Shown one piece after another: positions 7,088 to 15,250 of a DNA stretch of 64,000 nucleotides. Source of the DNA: Caenorhabditis elegans (taxonomy: Eukaryota; Nematoda; Chromadorea; Rhabditida; Rhabditidae); contig NC_003282.8 of assembly GCF_000002985.6 (NCBI RefSeq), forward strand, positions 10,540,001 to 10,604,000, read 5' to 3'. The notes beneath the pieces are model-generated. The model did not search any database and was not told where the DNA came from. It saw nothing but the letters and a program-made list of their open reading frames with translations. Position numbers and translations under genes: made by a program. Position 1 is the stretch's first letter, and each line of letters starts with the position of its first letter.

Positions 7088-10000
7088 ATGACTTGTGATG
7101 ATTGGAACAGTTATATTCAAGTGAACATTTATGGAAAAACCATAGAAGGACTTCAGCAGCAAGGAGTTGTGTTGGAATCTCTTTTGGTTAGTTCGATGAT
7201 GAAATTTCATCTCTGGTGATACTTGAATCTGAATATGGTGTTTATCAATTTCAGAACAACGTCGGCTGCTCTAAAGTTTGGATCATGGAGGGCTCCGTCT
7301 GCACAAATCCTAGACCCGAAAGCTCTACACATTCTGAAGAAAGTACAATCGAACCAGTTGTACCACTAAGTACAACTCTGGCCACTAACAAGCTTCCTCG
7401 ATTTTCAACTCCTGCTATCGGCCATTCAAATAATAATTCCAGTAAAAATTTCACATTGAATTTGGCTGAGAAGCTCTCAGAGATACTATCGGATGACGAT
7501 AAAACTGATGAATTCCTGGAGAACTCTCATCAATCCGAAACTTCGAAGGACGACGTGATTAAAGATTTGCTCGAAGAAATGGTACAAACGGTTGCCAATT
7601 CTAATAAACCTCCGATTCTTTTGAGCACAACTCTCGCAAATGTTGGTGTTCCCCGCTTTTCAACTCCCATCAAACCACAACATGCATTGAATCGAGATTT
7701 CACGATGAACATGACAGAAATGATTTCCGAAATCGATTCGAATTATGAAGGTTATGAATTATTCGACGATTCCTCCAATGACTGTACCACCTTGACCCCC
7801 AACTGCCAGGAGGTCGAATCGTCATTTTATCGAGCACTTTCTGAAGCAGCTAGTTCCATTGTTCCATATCAGGAAGGAAAGAGAAGAAGCTCGAGACGTT
7901 TGAGTACTCTGAGTAGTCTCAAGGAAACTGTCAAAGTAGAGCCTGCAGTTTCAAAATTAACGAAGAGAAGACGGCTCACGTAAGAATTTTTCTGTGACGA
8001 GAATTCTGCCCGTTCAGAGATCGCTGCAGATCGAATTATCATAACTTCAATTTCTTTTTTAAAAAACGGATTTATTAGCATGAATATATTCAAAATTTCA
8101 ATAATCCGAATCACCGTCGAAGTTATGTACTTAAGAGTTTCATTATTTTTCAGACCGGTTGAATGTTCAAGTGAAACTATGATTCCACACTCCCAACCAA
8201 TACCACTGGATACTTGCTCAGATCAACCCATTTTTCCCAATTCGACACACAATGCTATTCAATCTGATGGATTCTCATATGAACAACCTATTTGTGAATT
8301 TGGAGATAGTCAATTGTTTTTGTCAGCAAAAAGTCTTTGCACTGAGCCGAACAGTTCTATTGCTGAGGATGTGAAGCCGGTTTTGACAGTTTCGGATTCC
8401 GACATAACAGCTTCCAACAGGAATAATATCGATGATCATAATCGAGTCATAGAACTGTCAACTGAGGTATGATTTGAGTAATTTCCTTTATTTTTAATTT
8501 GTAAATCATCACAACTGACAAGGGAAGTCTTTGAGGGGGTCCCTAGATTTGGGATTCTCATGTTGAAATTCCAATAGAAGAGTATTCCAGATGATCCCTC
8601 CAAAAAATTTAGCTGCCCAGGTTGGGTTTCAGCAAAGTTATGACGTTTTGAAAATTCGGTCTGAAATCGGTTGATTTGTATACTAAATCAACGGTCGGCA
8701 TCGGCCCGGGACACCATAGTTGTCACCAGGCGCGTGGTGTGAGCAAATCATCGGTTGGTTGGTTGAGTGGTAACGAGATGGGTTCTGGTGGTGAAGGTTG
8801 TGGGTTCGATCCCTTGCGTTATAAAGCTTTTTTTAAAAGTTTTTACTGTATTTTAAAAACAGTAAAAAGTGTGATTGAAATTACTTTTACTGACTTTCTC
8901 CACCTTTTTGAGTTTCTTATAAACGTTTGCATCACATTTTCTCACATTTTTTGAATTAAAAAAATTTCAAAAAAATCAAAATTTTCATCATCAAAGTCAT
9001 GAAAAAAAATAGAAATCTCAGATTTTCAGATAACTATAAAAAACCCACCGAAAGATTATTTTCATTATTAAACTCATGGTTAAAACGTATTTCGCGATAA
9101 ACTGGGCCGTGACCGACGGAAAGGGCCACTGGTGTAAACCGCCGTTTTTGTTCGAATTTTTTTTTAGTAATTTCACCGTTTTTTTGTTGTTTTTACTTAT
9201 TGAATTAAAGGTAAATGCCGTTCCGTGCTGATCTTATTGTTGGAGGACTGGTGGAAGAGTTTGGACATGAATATAATCCAAGTTTCATGAGCCGCGAGGA
9301 ACAAAAAATTCTCGAACGTGTTCGAAGAATATTGCGTGATGGAAAAACTCATGAGCTGATCGTGTATAGTGAGGATGAAGAGGAAATTGTCGGTGGAATA
9401 GTAGAGGATGAAAATTGGACAGCAGACGATGATGGTCCCACTACTTATGCTCTTCCGGACAAAGTAAATTTCTCGGGAAATCTAGTAGATGTGGAGACTG
9501 TGAGTTTTCAACTATGTCTAAAAAGTTTGTAAAAGAAAGACGTTTTTACGGTTTTCGAAAGCCACCGTATTTTTATAAATGCTACCAACTTATGTGTATG
9601 TTTTGAATTGTAATACTGTTATCAATACAGGTTGAAAAGGCTATTGAATTTATGATGGATACAAAACATAACAAGTTCCTCACAATGTCCAGTGTACAGC
9701 ATCGTTACCGTTTTATCAAGTCAGAAAAGGATATGAAGAAGCTCCGAAAGTTCGCTAGAAATCGTCAGTTTTCTTTTTCCATATTCTCGGTGCACAACTA
9801 TTTATTTGTTTTAGAAAAAGTCAATTGTTCTCGAGCTTCCAGCTTCGCAAAACTGTCAGAACTTTTGAGAGCAAAAGTTTTTGAGACAATGGAAGCAAGT
9901 GAGTGTTTGATTGCAAATTAAATTTGCATGCTTTATTTTTTAGAAGTTCAAATCGACAAGCTCACACTTCGACGAATGGCAGTTGATCTAAATGAAGAGT

Positions 10001-13000
10001 TTGTGCACATTGACGATTTCAAGGCTTCAGACGATTGGCTCGCAAAATGGAAGAAGTCAAATGGTTTGGTATCTCGTCATATCACTACTTTTGTGACCAA
10101 AGCTAGTTTCGCAAATAAAGAAAAGACAGAAGAAGCGGCAAAGAAGTATGTTGATGATATGAAACTAGAACTGCAAACGCTCGATCCAAATACAGCTTTC
10201 AACTGTGATCAGTGCGGATTCACGAAGGAGCAATATTGCAAAAGGTTCGCCTTGAAAAGAGCAACTTTTATGAAATAAACTTTTCAGAACTCTCGCACCG
10301 AGGGGGGTGAAACGTGTTGAGAGACTTGTCCAATCAAAAGATGCCTTATCTCACTCGTATACCATTCTCCCAATGTTGAGTGTGACGGGAAAGCTCGCTC
10401 CAAAACTCTACATCGTTTTGCAGGTAGAAAATGCGTATCATTCATTGCAGTCTTCTCAACTTTAACTTTTTCAAAAAGTAATATATTACAGGAAAAAGGA
10501 GGCAAGTTTCCCAAGAAAGGTCACTGTTCTCCGTCCAACCTCATCGTTCGTGCCAACTCCAGTCACATTATGACCAAAGATTTAATGAGAGATTGGGTTG
10601 AAAGTGCAGTGTGCGATCCTGCGATGCCGAAGAAAACCGTTCTTCTCCTTGACTCATGGCCAGCATGGAAAAATGAAAGGGACGTACAAGACGCTGCGCT
10701 ATATGGACACACGGTCCACGTTCGTACGATTCCACCTGGAGCGACTTCTTTCATTCAACCTTGTGACATCTACCTCTTCTGCCCAATGAAAAACTTCGTC
10801 AAAAAAGTTCAATCCCATATCATCTACGCTGGAATCGAGTTCAAGCCCCATGAGCGTGACAATATTCTCCGTTTGATTTCGGCCGTGTACTTCTTTTTCT
10901 GTGCACCCAGATTCGAGACATGCTGGCAGTACGGTTGGTTCAAAGGAGGCTACATTGACTCACATCCATCTGAATTCGAGACACCTTCCAAATACTGTCT
11001 CGAAGCTACTGGCAAATGCATACTACAATGCCAAAACGCGGCATATGTCCGTTGTCCATATTGCAAAAAATGTATCTGCTTTCACCATTGGGTGGGAAGT
11101 GGATTCCCAGCTCACAGATGCTCCTAATTCACGAGTTTATTACTTTTTTTAAAAATTAACGTTATGTTCTGTTCGTTCTGCTAATTTCTTCCGGCGTGTT
11201 TTCAAAATTTTCTGAGATTTCTATTTTTTTTTCATGACTTTGATGATGAAAATTTTGATTTTTTTTGAAATTTTTTTAATTCAAAAAATGTGAGAAAATG
11301 TGATGCAAACGTTTATAAGAAACTCAAAAAGGTGGAGAAAGTCAGTAAAAGTAATTTCAATCACACTTTTTACTGTTTTTAAAATACAGTAAAACTTTTA
11401 AAAAAAGCTTTATAACGCAAGGGATCGAACCCACAACCTTCACCACCAGAACCCATCTCGTTACCACACAGGTAAACCGCGTCATGCGAGCAACTGGTGA
11501 ATAACGAACGAACAGCCGCTAACACGCGAAATGTGATTGTAAACAACAAATAATTTTGTGAAAAATGTTTTCCACTGATTTTTAAACTTTCATAAGGATC
11601 CCCTTATGATTCCTCCGATGTTCCAATTTTGAGCAAAAGGGTCCCCCCTTATGGTTGAAAAAAGTTTTTCGCCTAAATTTTTTTTTTGAAAACTTTTCAA
11701 AATTTGCTCAGATGTTACAGAAAATGCAATGTTTGTAGTTTTTTTTTAGTTTCAATGTTCTAAACACAATTTCAGACCAAAACCTGAGGTGTAGTATGTA
11801 GAACACCTATGTTCAAAAACGCTTTCACTTTGGATGCTTATATCTCCGTGGAAAAATTTTTTGTGACAAAGCGATCAACTACAAAGTTGTTTATTTTAAT
11901 CTAATGTACAACTTTGTAGTTGAACGTTTTTCTTCAAAAAAATTGGTGGTCGAGATAGGAACAGAAAAAGAAGTAGAAAATAAAAGCATGAAGCTTCCGC
12001 AATTAACACAACTTTATCTCGACCACCAATTTTTTTGATGAGAAACGTTCAACTACAAAGTCGTACATTAGATTAAGATAATCAACTCTGTAGTTGATTG
12101 CTTTGTCATAAAAATTTTTTCCACGGAGATATAAGCATCCAAAGTGAAAGCGTTTTTGAACATAGGTGTTCTAATACACTTCAGGTTTTCGTTTGAACTC
12201 GTGTTCAGCACATCGAAACTAAAAAAACAATCATTTTTACATTTTTCTATAACATCTGATCAAATTATGAAAAGTTTTCAAAAAAAAAAATTTCGAAAAA
12301 ATTTTAGAAAATTTTCATAAGGGGGGAGCCTTTGGATTTTTTTTCATAAAAATCGAAAAATTTTTTTTTTCAAAAGTTGTCAAATATTTATCAGATATTG
12401 TAGAAATATGTTTACTTGTTCGTTTCAATAAGTTTTCTTACCAAATGTGGTGCTTTCGAAAACTAACAAACTGTAAAAACCTCTATCCCTCTAACAGATC
12501 TACCTGATATGCCAGTTTTTCGAAGTCATGTCCCACATCGGGCAAGCAAGATATCTAAAAATTGTCAACTACAAACTTTTTTAGTTTGTTATTGAACATG
12601 TTTCATACTTAATAGTTTTTTGCTTTCTGTGCAGAGTACGGAGATATCATCAGTCATAATTAGTGATATTTGACTCATAACTAGGTGCTCCTATTTGCTC
12701 AGCCATCCAAGATGGAAAAAAGTTACAATAAATAATTTGTCAATCACTTTATTCACAACAACTTTTTAGTTGACAAGTTTTTCATATTTAAGCTGCCTGC
12801 GGAGGTAGAACATTTTGGAAGTACTGACTTTCTATGAACAAGCCAAATTGACTGTTGTATTTTTTTGCCCAGGAGTGCGATTGAGCTATGAAAACTGTGG
12901 AAAATACTAAAATATACATTTCCTACACAAGTATTGCAGTATTGAAATTTTTTGGAAAAAAAATTTTTCCCAAAATTTTTTCATAAGGGGGGACCCTTAT

Positions 13001-15250
13001 CAAAATTTTAAAATCAGTGGAAAATATTTTTAATTAAATTTTTATTGAACTTAACTTTTTTTCAATTATATGTTGGTTTCAATCACAAATCACATTTACG
13101 ACTCAAAGTGATTTTTTCTTTTCTACGACTTCAATATAAGAGCGAGAAACCATTTCAAAAGAAGCTCCAAACGCAAATGGCAACGACACTCCGAAATAAC
13201 GGTTGCGCGCCCTCTTTACCGTAAATCCTCCTCATTTTCGAAATTATTTTTTCACCATTTTTTTCTTTTTCTTCGATTTTTCATAGTTTTCTTCAGCAAT
13301 TCTTTGATTTTTTTGGCAAAAATAATTATTTTCCGTAAATATACTCGTGTTTCAGCATATCCGACGTTGAGGTACCGATTCATCCGCGGATCCGACGCGG
13401 AATCCATAGAAATGGAGAGACTCGTCTCTGGAGTTTGGATGGGAGTGTGCTGCTGATTCTGAAAATTCGAGTTGATAAAATTTTGGGTTAAAAAATTAAT
13501 GATTACATTGACAAATTGAGCACAAATTTCCGACTTCCGGTCTTTAATTGTAGCATGGATCTCGACTTAATGGACGAATTCTCGGATCAGAGTCTAGCAT
13601 CAGGGCAATCAAACTGCGAAGATCTGTAGAAGTTCCAGCGAAGACAGTCAGATGGGACAGAATAATGTGATCGACGATGCTCCACCACCAACACGCTCAC
13701 GTGGACTGTGATATTTGTCAACTCGACGATTATTCATCACGTAAGAAAAATAGTTGATACTTAATTAAAAACCATTTTTTGTTTTCAGCGACTTCAACAA
13801 TCACCGACTCCTGCCGCCTCGTCGCCTCGGAACGTGTCATCTGCATCGACAAACCCGTCCCCATCCGAATAATTTTCTATTTTTTTTCAAATTTTATTTT
13901 ATTTTTTTATAAAATAAAAATTTTTATGAACTATCAATTGTTATTAAGGAACCGCAAATTTCAATATATGGCGAATAACGGGGTGCCAGCTAGCTGGGCA
14001 TTCGGAGCGTCCTCATCATTTACCGGTCCGTTTTTCGCGAGTTCTTCATCGAATAGCGGCCCGCGCCTTCACCAAAGCCATGTACCGTTTTCGCGAAATA
14101 GCGGCCCGTCACCCGACGAATATTCGCATGACGCGGTTTACCTGTGCACTCAACCAACCAACCGATGATTTGCTCACACCACGCGCCTGGTGACAACTAT
14201 GGTGTCCCGGGCTGATGCCGACCGTTGATTTAGTATACAAATCAACCGATTTCAGACCGAATTTTCAAAACGTCATAACTTTGCTGAAACCCAACCTGGG
14301 CAGCTAAATTTTTTGGAGGGATCATCTGGAATACTCTTCTATTGGAATTTCAACATGAGAATCCCAAATCTAGGGACCCCCTCAAAGACTTCCCTTGTGA
14401 GGGAGGTTTTCGTTTTTAATTAAAGATTTTGCAGCATAAGACAATGGGAGAGTTTCAATATAATTTCGATGATGAGGATACTGTGCTGATCGGAAATTAT
14501 GAAGAAGTTGGAACAGAAATTGATGAGGCAGATGAACAACATAATGAGGAGAACAGTGAAGATGATGAAGAGGATGAGAGCCCGATTCCTTCAAAAAAGC
14601 GAGTTTCGTTTGCTGTTCCACTTGTTCAAAGTCGCTCCAAACAAAAGGATGAAATGAATAAAGTTCATATCATTAAATGCCATTTTGATGTGAGTTTCTG
14701 AGAACAAATAAATATGAAAAATCAACATTTTCTTCCCGTTTAGAAGTGTAACAAATCGTACAATTGGCGCAAAAAATACGGTAAACTACGTCTTGTGGAT
14801 CACGCCTTCACTCATGTCCCTCACTTGAAAATGAAGTGCAATTTTTGTGATTACATGTGCAAAGGAATTAGAAATATTAGGCTTCATCACAAGAAAAGTC
14901 ATCCTGATGAACAATTAACGGGATTTGGTATCAAAAGGTACTTTGAGATTCCAAAAATTAATGTATTTGTCTTATTTTTCAGTGTGGTCCGTACTTCGAA
15001 AAAAGGAAAAGACTTGGCGAAGGTTTGGGATGAATGTTTTAAAAGTAAGTGAAGTATATATGAAAAAGTTATAATTTAAAATGTTAACTTTCTAGAAAAT
15101 CGTGTCCTTCAACATGGATCTGGTACCGATTCAAACCTATTGCATTTCTCAAGACAAGACAAAGGATCTAAAAGATCACAGAAATCTATGGATTCTGGTG
15201 CAAAACAAAAATTGGATGAAGCTAGGGACGAGGATGTGAAGCCATTTTAG
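7088..15250 (+). CDS. zim-1: ZIM-1, C2H2 zinc-finger pairing-centre protein
   Basis: Seven exons (7088-7186, 7255-7979, 8154-8466, 14435-14689, 14744-14937, 14983-15044, 15096-15250) give 600 aa. The start MTCDDWNS is shared with the next two paralogues and is preceded by TTTTCCAG. Two S-T-P motifs lie in PRFSTP contexts, with Thr at about 85 and 170. A basic KRRSSRR patch and an acidic exon 4 follow. The fingers are an atypical CHFD-KCN...DHAFTH (C-x4-C-x17-H-x3-H) and a standard CNFC...HHKKSH (C-x2-C-x12-H-x4-H). Intron 4 falls between the two cysteines of the first finger. By published work ZIM-1 binds pairing centres of chromosomes II and III in meiotic prophase. Intron 3 is about 6 kb because it contains a nested transposon; the same intron is 86 bp in zim-3. 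First of four tandem paralogues. Confidence 0.95.
8519..9021 (+). repeat. Left terminal inverted repeat of the Tc5-type element
   Basis: About 503 bp. Positions 8519-8767 are the reverse complement of 14149-14397, and about 8768-9021 of 11212-11466. The two arms are nearly identical apart from the insertion that splits the right one. Confidence 0.92.
8760..8813 (+). promoter_or_regulatory. tRNA-like A-box/B-box pair within the Tc5 inverted repeat
   Basis: TGGTTGAGTGG at 8760-8770 matches the Pol III A box (TGGCNNAGTGG) at all but one position. GGTTCGATCCC at 8803-8813 matches the B box (GGTTCGANTCC) at all but one. The start-to-start spacing is 43 bp, as in tRNA genes. The flanking acceptor, anticodon and T stems do not fold well, so this is not a working tRNA. 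Whether it binds TFIIIC is not known. Confidence 0.5.
9215..11127 (+). CDS. Tc5-type transposase (pogo superfamily DDE)
   Basis: Six exons (9215-9499, 9631-9763, 9815-9898, 9944-10244, 10288-10423, 10492-11127) splice in frame to 524 aa with no stop or frameshift. It would cut and rejoin transposon ends in the nucleus. Seen: an acidic N-terminal region; a CENP-B-type helix-turn-helix with the hallmark F-x-A-S-x-x-W-L (FKASDDWL); the DDE core with the first Asp in FNCDQCGF, the second in VLLLDSW and the third in FIQPCD; and a cysteine/histidine C-terminal region (CILQC, RCPYCKKCICFHH, HRC) matching the Tc5 C-terminal zinc-binding domain. All three catalytic acids are present, so the protein may be active. 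It has its own splice sites inside the zim-1 intron and the same strand, so read-through from zim-1 could also reach it. Confidence 0.9.
11212..11466 (-). repeat. Right terminal inverted repeat, inner half
   Basis: Reverse complement of about 8768-9021. It starts CTGAGATTTCTATTTTTTTT and stops in ...CGTTACCA, where the second element begins. Confidence 0.9.
11554..13030. repeat. Foldback sequences inside the nested element
   Basis: The main arms are 11635-11957 and 12015-12334. Each reads from a CCCCCCTTATG-type end through the TTTCAGACCAAAACC region and CACTTTGGATGCTTATATCTC to CGACCACCAATTTTTTT, with a 57-bp loop. A second, outer pair (11554-11606 with 12971-13030) carries CCACTGATTTT and a CATAAGG motif. 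The CATAAGGGGGGA motif therefore occurs three times in this stretch. It looks like one or two hairpin-type MITEs, possibly nested. Confidence 0.8.
13340..13875 (+). pseudogene. Exon-like fragments captured in the nested element
   Basis: GC content rises and codon use looks like genuine exons. After TTTCAG near 13357 an open frame reads ISDVEVPIHPRIRRGIHRNG. From 13556 a frame opens MDLDLMDEFSDQSLASGQSN and stops near 13627. After another TTTTCAG near 13788 a Ser/Pro-rich frame reads RLQQSPTPAASSPRN and ends at a stop near 13872. The pieces do not join into one open gene. They look like parts of a host gene picked up by the element. I do not recognise the parent. Confidence 0.45.
14149..14397 (-). 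repeat. Right terminal inverted repeat, outer half
   Basis: Reverse complement of 8519-8767. It resumes with CTCAACCAACC after the second element and ends ...GACTTCCCTTG before the TGA target duplication. Confidence 0.92.

Follow-up and report, generated by a model that had tools for sequence, protein, structure and literature searches.

Introduction

Why should the terminal inverted repeats of a DNA transposon carry an A box and a B box at the spacing of a tRNA gene? The question is raised by a Tc5 element in a 64-kb stretch of Caenorhabditis elegans DNA, C4:10540001-10604000, which was analysed as a whole and is called the window here; coordinates given without a chromosome or locus are positions in it. 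The original prediction, made from the letters of the window, read the two boxes as a possible tRNA-derived module that might bind TFIIIC, start a Pol III transcript into the element, or direct the element towards other Pol III factors. We have followed these readings through the other Tc5 copies, through two further families of transposons with terminal inverted repeats (TIRs), Tc4 and a family named R here, and through the insertion sites of a clan of transposons that favours tRNA genes.

Results

A tRNA-like box pair in the inverted repeats of Tc5

Tc5 is marked by inverted repeats near 490 bp and a TNA target duplication. The element at 8519..14397, which is ~3.2 kb long if a nested insertion is excluded, has the ends CAAGGGAAGTC and is flanked by a TGA duplication (8516-8518 and 14398-14400). 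Its left repeat is uninterrupted (8519..9010, plus strand, ~492 bp), and its right repeat, on the minus strand, lies in an inner part (11225..11466) and an outer part (14147..14397). The stop-to-stop piece at 10321-11124 matched the Pfam families Transp_Tc5_C (E 4.7e-13) and DDE_1 (E 6.9e-9), both above cut-off, and that at 9922-10275 matched HTH_Tnp_Tc5 below cut-off (E 9.2e-4); the piece at 9607-9918 had no Pfam match. The transposase domains, the ~492-bp repeats and the TGA duplication all fit, and the element is Tc5.

In the left repeat the A box TGGTTGAGTGG (8760..8770, plus strand) begins 241 bp from the Tc5 end, and the B box GGTTCGATCCC (8803..8813, plus strand) follows with 43 bp from start to start and 32 bp between the boxes. 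A T7 run, a candidate Pol III terminator, stands 14 nt 3′ of the B box and still within the repeat (8828..8834, plus strand). The tRNA-derived module proposed here spans 8745..8836 on the plus strand, and a short Pol III transcript, if there is one, would fall within it. The degenerate box consensus is TRGYNNARNGG for the A box and GGTTCRANNCC for the B box, and both Tc5 boxes match it without a mismatch; each has 1 mismatch to the stricter form, TRGCNNAGTGG or GGTTCGANTCC, and by this measure the one mismatch per box and the 43-bp spacing given in the original prediction hold. The same prediction placed the pair in both inverted repeats, which is right for the left pair and for the right B box (11421..11431, minus strand, intact); the right A box is split by a nested transposon at 11467..14146, and 10 of its 11 bases are left at 14147-14156. 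The sequence thus has what is expected of a type-2 Pol III promoter, namely A and B boxes at tRNA spacing and a T run 3′ of the B box, of which the T run is a weak terminator criterion because such runs are common in AT-rich DNA.

The perfect pair at 8760/8803 is the only one in the 64 kb, and none arose in 60 first-order Markov windows. When up to 1 mismatch per box was allowed, the window still held that pair only, and the simulated windows held 0.9 on average and 3 at most. Perfect pairs appeared 1, 0 and 1 times per 20,000 simulated 500-nt strands in Markov-modelled Tc5, R and Tc4 repeats, respectively. Across the C. elegans genome (100.3 Mb, seven contigs), the narrower pattern TGGTYGAGTGGT...GGTTCGATCCC occurred once and its reversed control not at all.

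The module in other Tc5 copies

Five module-bearing Tc5 arms were found: the left and right arms in the window, and those at chrIV:11.197 Mb, chrI:2.148 Mb and chrI:2.1468 Mb. All five share an identical B box, and all five have seven or more T in a row. The A box reads TGGTTGAGTGG in one arm, TGGTTAAGTGG in one and TGGTTAAGTAG in one, and is interrupted by an insertion junction in two; the three uninterrupted A boxes differ from that of the left arm in the window by 0, 1 and 2 bases, and TGGTTAAGTAG departs from the degenerate consensus by 1 mismatch. In both interrupted boxes the junction is that of an element with CACAG-type ends lying inside the box. At chrI:2146797 it falls 2 bases into the A box, and TGGTTAAGTAG is re-formed by the final two bases of the insertion, so that an A box with 1 mismatch is still readable there; the far end of this insertion was looked for and was not found. 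Only the outer 150 bp of a Tc5 repeat are present at C4:14118286. The copy at chrIV:11.197 Mb (L038, 495-5334) has its interior split by ~4.8 kb of other DNA, and no right repeat lies within the fetched stretch.

Tc4 and a third family carry the boxes at nearly the same place

Tc4 is a fold-back element of C. elegans. It resembles Tc5 in the outer 142 bp of the repeats, at 87% identity, and in having an A/B box module, as the present analysis shows; it is unlike Tc5 in the inner repeat, where BLAST similarity ends at base 142, and between the boxes, as judged by the shuffle tests below. Its A box TGGCCGAGTTGG and B box GGTTCGATTCC are 43 bp apart, with the A box 252 bp from the end (251-254 over the arms). 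Among 36 distinct Tc4 arms (loci L008-L030), the A box is exact in 33 and the B box in 32.

The third TIR family, R, was noticed among the targets of the nested transposon. One element was fetched: its repeats start with CTAGGGAGTG, adjoining a TTA duplication, and its A box stands 242 bp from the end. The B box of R departs from the consensus at 1 position, and R is therefore without a perfect pair. R modules occur in inverted pairs, many of them ~1 kb apart (at least 41 matches, with 40 of 57 candidates scored). The A-box offsets of Tc5, R and Tc4 are thus 241, 242 and 252 bp and the start-to-start spacings 43, 44 and 43 bp, with all modules pointing inward; the B box is followed by T7 in Tc5, T5 in Tc4, and T4 then T7 in R. 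The original prediction named loss of the boxes in other Tc5 copies or in relatives as an observation that would refute it; the boxes are conserved in both.

BLAST of the Tc5 and R repeats gave one strong match, 65 bp at 77% (E 3e-9), and it lies on the module. The outer 225 bp show a weaker colinear similarity, with a score of 84 against 52 ± 8.5 for shuffled sequence, a value that 0.2% of shuffles reach. Within the alignment the two best 25-bp windows (80%) both fall in the module, and the others range from 44 to 72%.

Likeness to tRNA genes beyond the boxes

Each module was compared with 11 targets while both boxes were held fixed and the rest was shuffled 500 times. Nine of the targets were tRNA genes recovered from insertion sites rather than the full tRNA set, so that the tRNAs matched below are candidate parents only. 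The Tc5 module resembles the R module beyond the boxes (z 5.6, 0/500 shuffles). The R module in turn resembles tRNA-Asn-GTT (z 8.8), tRNA-Arg-ACG (z 7.7) and tRNA-Ala-TGC (z 4.3), and the Tc4 module resembles tRNA-Phe-GAA (z 5.3) and tRNA-Asn (z 4.8), each with 0/500 shuffles; the likeness of the Tc5 module to tRNA-Arg is weaker (z 3.6, p 0.004). The Tc4 and Tc5 modules, compared with each other, are alike at the boxes only (z about -0.1 to -0.2 for the rest), a pattern that would fit either separate capture or deep divergence.

The Rfam tRNA model aligns end to end with both arms of R at 20.6 bits, below the 29-bit cut-off, and gave no match up to E 5 for the Tc5 module or for two scanned Tc4 loci. 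ARAGORN, run with the bacterial code, reported no tRNA in the 64-kb window and none at the rejoined Tc5 site. A cloverleaf or other special RNA fold in the Tc5 module was considered and rejected, as the fold z was 0.23 and neither ARAGORN nor Rfam reported a tRNA. Judged from its sequence, the Tc5 module resembles a tRNA gene and seems to be derived from one, but is not itself one. The likeness of Tc5 to R beyond the boxes, together with that of R to tRNA-Arg and tRNA-Asn genes, supports the tRNA-derived origin that had been suggested.

Elements that insert into tRNA genes also insert at the module

The nested transposon that splits the right A box of Tc5 (11467..14146, 2,680 bp) has 23-bp inverted ends, CACAGGTAAACCGCGTCATGCGA, and a 2-bp duplication, CA, or TG on the module strand (11465-11466 and 14147-14148). 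It belongs to a clan of CACAGGTAAA-ended elements whose ends are CACAGGTAAAnCGC and variants, and whose insertions fall within the 5′ half of a wide range of tRNA genes and make duplications of 2-3 bp. With up to 2 mismatches allowed, the genome has 135 ends like CACAGGTAAACCGCG; since the reversed control gave 148, many of the 2-mismatch matches are chance. The 100 places listed comprise 31 exact ends, 28 with 1 mismatch and 41 with 2, and 78 flanks were fetched from them. These belong to 28 exact ends (of the other three, two are in the window and one was omitted), to every one of the 28 ends with 1 mismatch, and to 22 of the 41 ends with 2 mismatches, selected for their end sequence and pairing.

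An A or B box at up to 1 mismatch lies near the junction in 42/78 flanks, or 39/69 after removal of near-duplicates, against 6.4% of 4,000 window positions, 8.5% of shuffled flanks and 2/25 Tc4 flanks. Of the 36/78 flanks that failed this test, several come from a tRNA gene or a tRNA-like repeat in which the cut is upstream of the A box. When flank pairs were rejoined (21, and that of the window, giving 22), ARAGORN recognised a tRNA gene in nine and a doubtful one in a tenth; it recognised none in the other 12, which include the Tc5 site and two pairs that also have no duplication. The nine interrupted genes are those for Ala-AGC, Gly-GCC, Ser-GCT, Gly-TCC, Asn-GTT, Ala-TGC, Arg-ACG, Phe-GAA and Val-AAC; the cut sites follow tRNA nt 7-27, and the nine duplications, 2-3 bp long, comprise 8 different sequences. 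Such variable cuts, spread over tRNA genes of nine anticodons, are better explained if a complex is recognised than if one sequence is.

Twenty-odd further flanks match the dispersed tRNA-like repeats R, S, U and V, some over short stretches only. U (flanks L091, L092 and L123; 237 first-look candidates, 40 scored) and S (flanks L080, L112 and L135; 73 first-look candidates, 40 scored) are both repeated targets of the clan, and may be CeRep3.

The repeats of Tc5, Tc4 and R showed seven clan insertions, every one of them at the module: two in Tc5 (the window and chrI:2146797), two in Tc4 (C4:10030231 and C5:6712425-6716525) and three in R (C5:15107529, C4:16261591 and C6:2815319). Their junctions span from 2 bp before the A box to ~27 bp past its start. 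Among the best matches to the reference repeats, which contain the repeats and not the element interiors, no junction lies outside the module. One flank in a tRNA-Arg gene matches the R module at 73%, as a relative rather than as an insertion. The suggestion that the module targets Tc5 to the neighbourhood of Pol III factors survives only in another sense, in that the module is itself a target of tRNA-favouring transposons.

Discussion

The most probable account of these observations is that a degenerate tRNA gene lies within the TIRs of Tc5, Tc4 and R and serves as a type-2 Pol III promoter that is treated much like a tRNA gene. At some point such a gene would have entered the TIRs of Tc5 and those of Tc4 and R, its relatives with TNA duplications. 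The A box, the B box, their spacing and the T run that follows are still there, but neither Tc5 nor Tc4 is recognised any longer as a tRNA gene. Each repeat would then hold an inward-facing type-2 Pol III promoter with predicted TFIIIC binding, and any transcript would be at most ~85-90 nt long and end inside the repeat at the T run. When CACAGGTAAA-ended elements were inserted at the modules of Tc5, Tc4 and R, at the positions given above, their insertion apparatus may have read an assembled TFIIIC/TFIIIB complex, or the boxes themselves. The insertion record suggests that the three modules may be recognised by the tRNA-gene machinery of the cell.

For Tc5, we infer from the sequence that the TIR module is a tRNA-derived type-2 Pol III promoter for which TFIIIC binding is predicted. 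A Pol III transcript running into the element, as first envisaged, is unlikely to reach the transposase or to serve it, since the T7 run at 8828-8834 stands 14 nt after the B box and inside the repeat.

Published embryo data set a bound on occupancy. In the part of the report available to us, TFIIIC ChIP gave 504 extra-TFIIIC sites, of which 225 overlap repeats and 214 of these CeRep3, leaving 11/504 in repeats other than CeRep3, and 43/525 Pol III-bound sites overlap any repeat (PMC6950938). By these figures, annotated copies of Tc4, Tc5 or R could account for at most 54 called sites (11 + 43). The modules listed here number at least 80, so that a good part of them was not called in the embryo. 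As far as the portion consulted goes, the embryo ChIP counts against strong TFIIIC occupancy and leaves limited room for it; the modules may be unoccupied, weakly occupied or occupied in the germ line only, or their occupancy may be masked by repeat mapping.

A further reading, which we put forward tentatively, is that three TIR families keep a TFIIIC docking site in both ends that is useful to the element, and that the clan insertions record germ-line TFIIIC occupancy. The benefit could be, for example, a shield against spreading heterochromatin or a means of bringing the two ends of the element together.

Against any such use, the module might be a neutral passenger, a tRNA gene captured once or more that persists without use, with the tRNA-favouring elements reading DNA sequence only. 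We regard this as possible though somewhat doubtful. The copies within each family are near-identical, so that conservation within a family proves little; in 2/3 uninterrupted Tc5 arms the A box is unlike that of the window, once against the consensus; and the embryo ChIP, in the part available, leaves only limited room for occupancy (PMC6950938). Against a passenger stand the two boxes and their spacing, which three families share at nearly one offset even though the rest of their inner repeats has diverged, and the two best 25-bp windows (80%) of the Tc5-R alignment, which fall in the module.

It is improbable that the boxes arose by convergence, as transposase-binding or repeat-architecture sequences that happen to look like A and B boxes. 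Their presence in the repeats of both arms and the lack of a cloverleaf in Tc5 would be natural on such a view, but between the boxes R and Tc4 are closer to tRNA-Arg, tRNA-Asn and tRNA-Phe than box-keeping shuffles are, the Rfam tRNA model aligns with R, if below cut-off, and the tRNA-favouring elements insert at the module. A chance match in an AT-rich genome is highly improbable: pairs at 1 mismatch per box are not rare in simulated windows (mean 0.9), but a 0-mismatch pair is absent from all 60 of them, and the A/B pair recurs in Tc4 and R at about the same offset.

The proposed degenerate tRNA gene within the repeats of Tc5, Tc4 and R invites comparison with other systems. tRNA-derived SINEs are mobile elements that carry a degenerate tRNA gene with A and B boxes. 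Tc5, Tc4 and R share with them both mobility and the degenerate tRNA gene; unlike SINEs, they hold the module inside the inverted repeats of a cut-and-paste DNA transposon, twice per complete element and facing inward. Extra-TFIIIC sites and the CeRep3 putative tRNA pseudogenes are described, in the part of the report at hand, as dispersed, tRNA-like and endowed with strong A and B boxes (PMC6950938). The modules of Tc4, Tc5 and R are likewise dispersed and tRNA-like, and differ in being parts of TIR transposons; the main text of that report contains no word starting with ‘transpos’ (PMC6950938). Retrotransposons are described as targeting the surroundings of tRNA genes, in the portion of the source available (PMC5006619).

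Closer to the nested element stand the Dada DNA transposons, which, according to the available parts of the sources, insert inside tRNA genes, some of them at the A box (PMC3706591, PMC8869645), with 6-7-bp duplications, no terminal inverted repeats and a fixed site per family (PMC3706591). On that description, both Dada and the clan of the nested element are DNA transposons that enter tRNA genes, and the clan is unlike Dada in its inverted ends, its 2-3-bp duplications and its variable cuts (nt 7-27) over nine anticodons. The 2-bp duplication of the nested element (2-3 bp elsewhere) and its 23-bp inverted ends do not fit Dada.

In the open-licence literature, which did not include the founding Tc4 and Tc5 papers, we came across no account of a tRNA-like module in the repeats of Tc4 or Tc5; the same literature yielded no description of these C. 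elegans tRNA-favouring elements and no other tRNA-derived promoter in the inverted repeats of a cut-and-paste transposon. If our reading is correct, a tRNA-derived promoter is built into the TIRs of cut-and-paste transposons, in three families and at about one position, and DNA transposons are linked to the Pol III machinery of a model animal in a way that can be tested. The finding also points to a C. elegans clan of DNA transposons that enters tRNA genes at variable sites, unlike Dada.

As to the nature of this clan, no transposase ORF could be assigned in the window copy or in nine fetched copies of CACAGGTAAA-ended elements (L150-L158); the clan may be of the CMC/Mirage type. In the window copy the longest ORF lying wholly within the element has 59 aa, and another of 129 aa overruns its end. 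Pfam was run on two ORF pieces only among these copies: that of L157 (C4:16261580-16268320) matched Transposase_1 over 20 residues (0.0028) and that of L158 (C6:2166250-2172620) matched RVT_1 (4.4e-5), both below cut-off. By eye, L157 and L158 have the same kind of ends and some ORF stretches in common, and L151 contains a mariner-like stretch. The Transposase_1, RVT_1 and mariner-like stretches are taken as nested or captured sequence. The nested element in the window also contains a palindrome (11799-12173) with 159-bp arms and a 57-bp spacer, parts of which match microRNA precursor models below their cut-offs.
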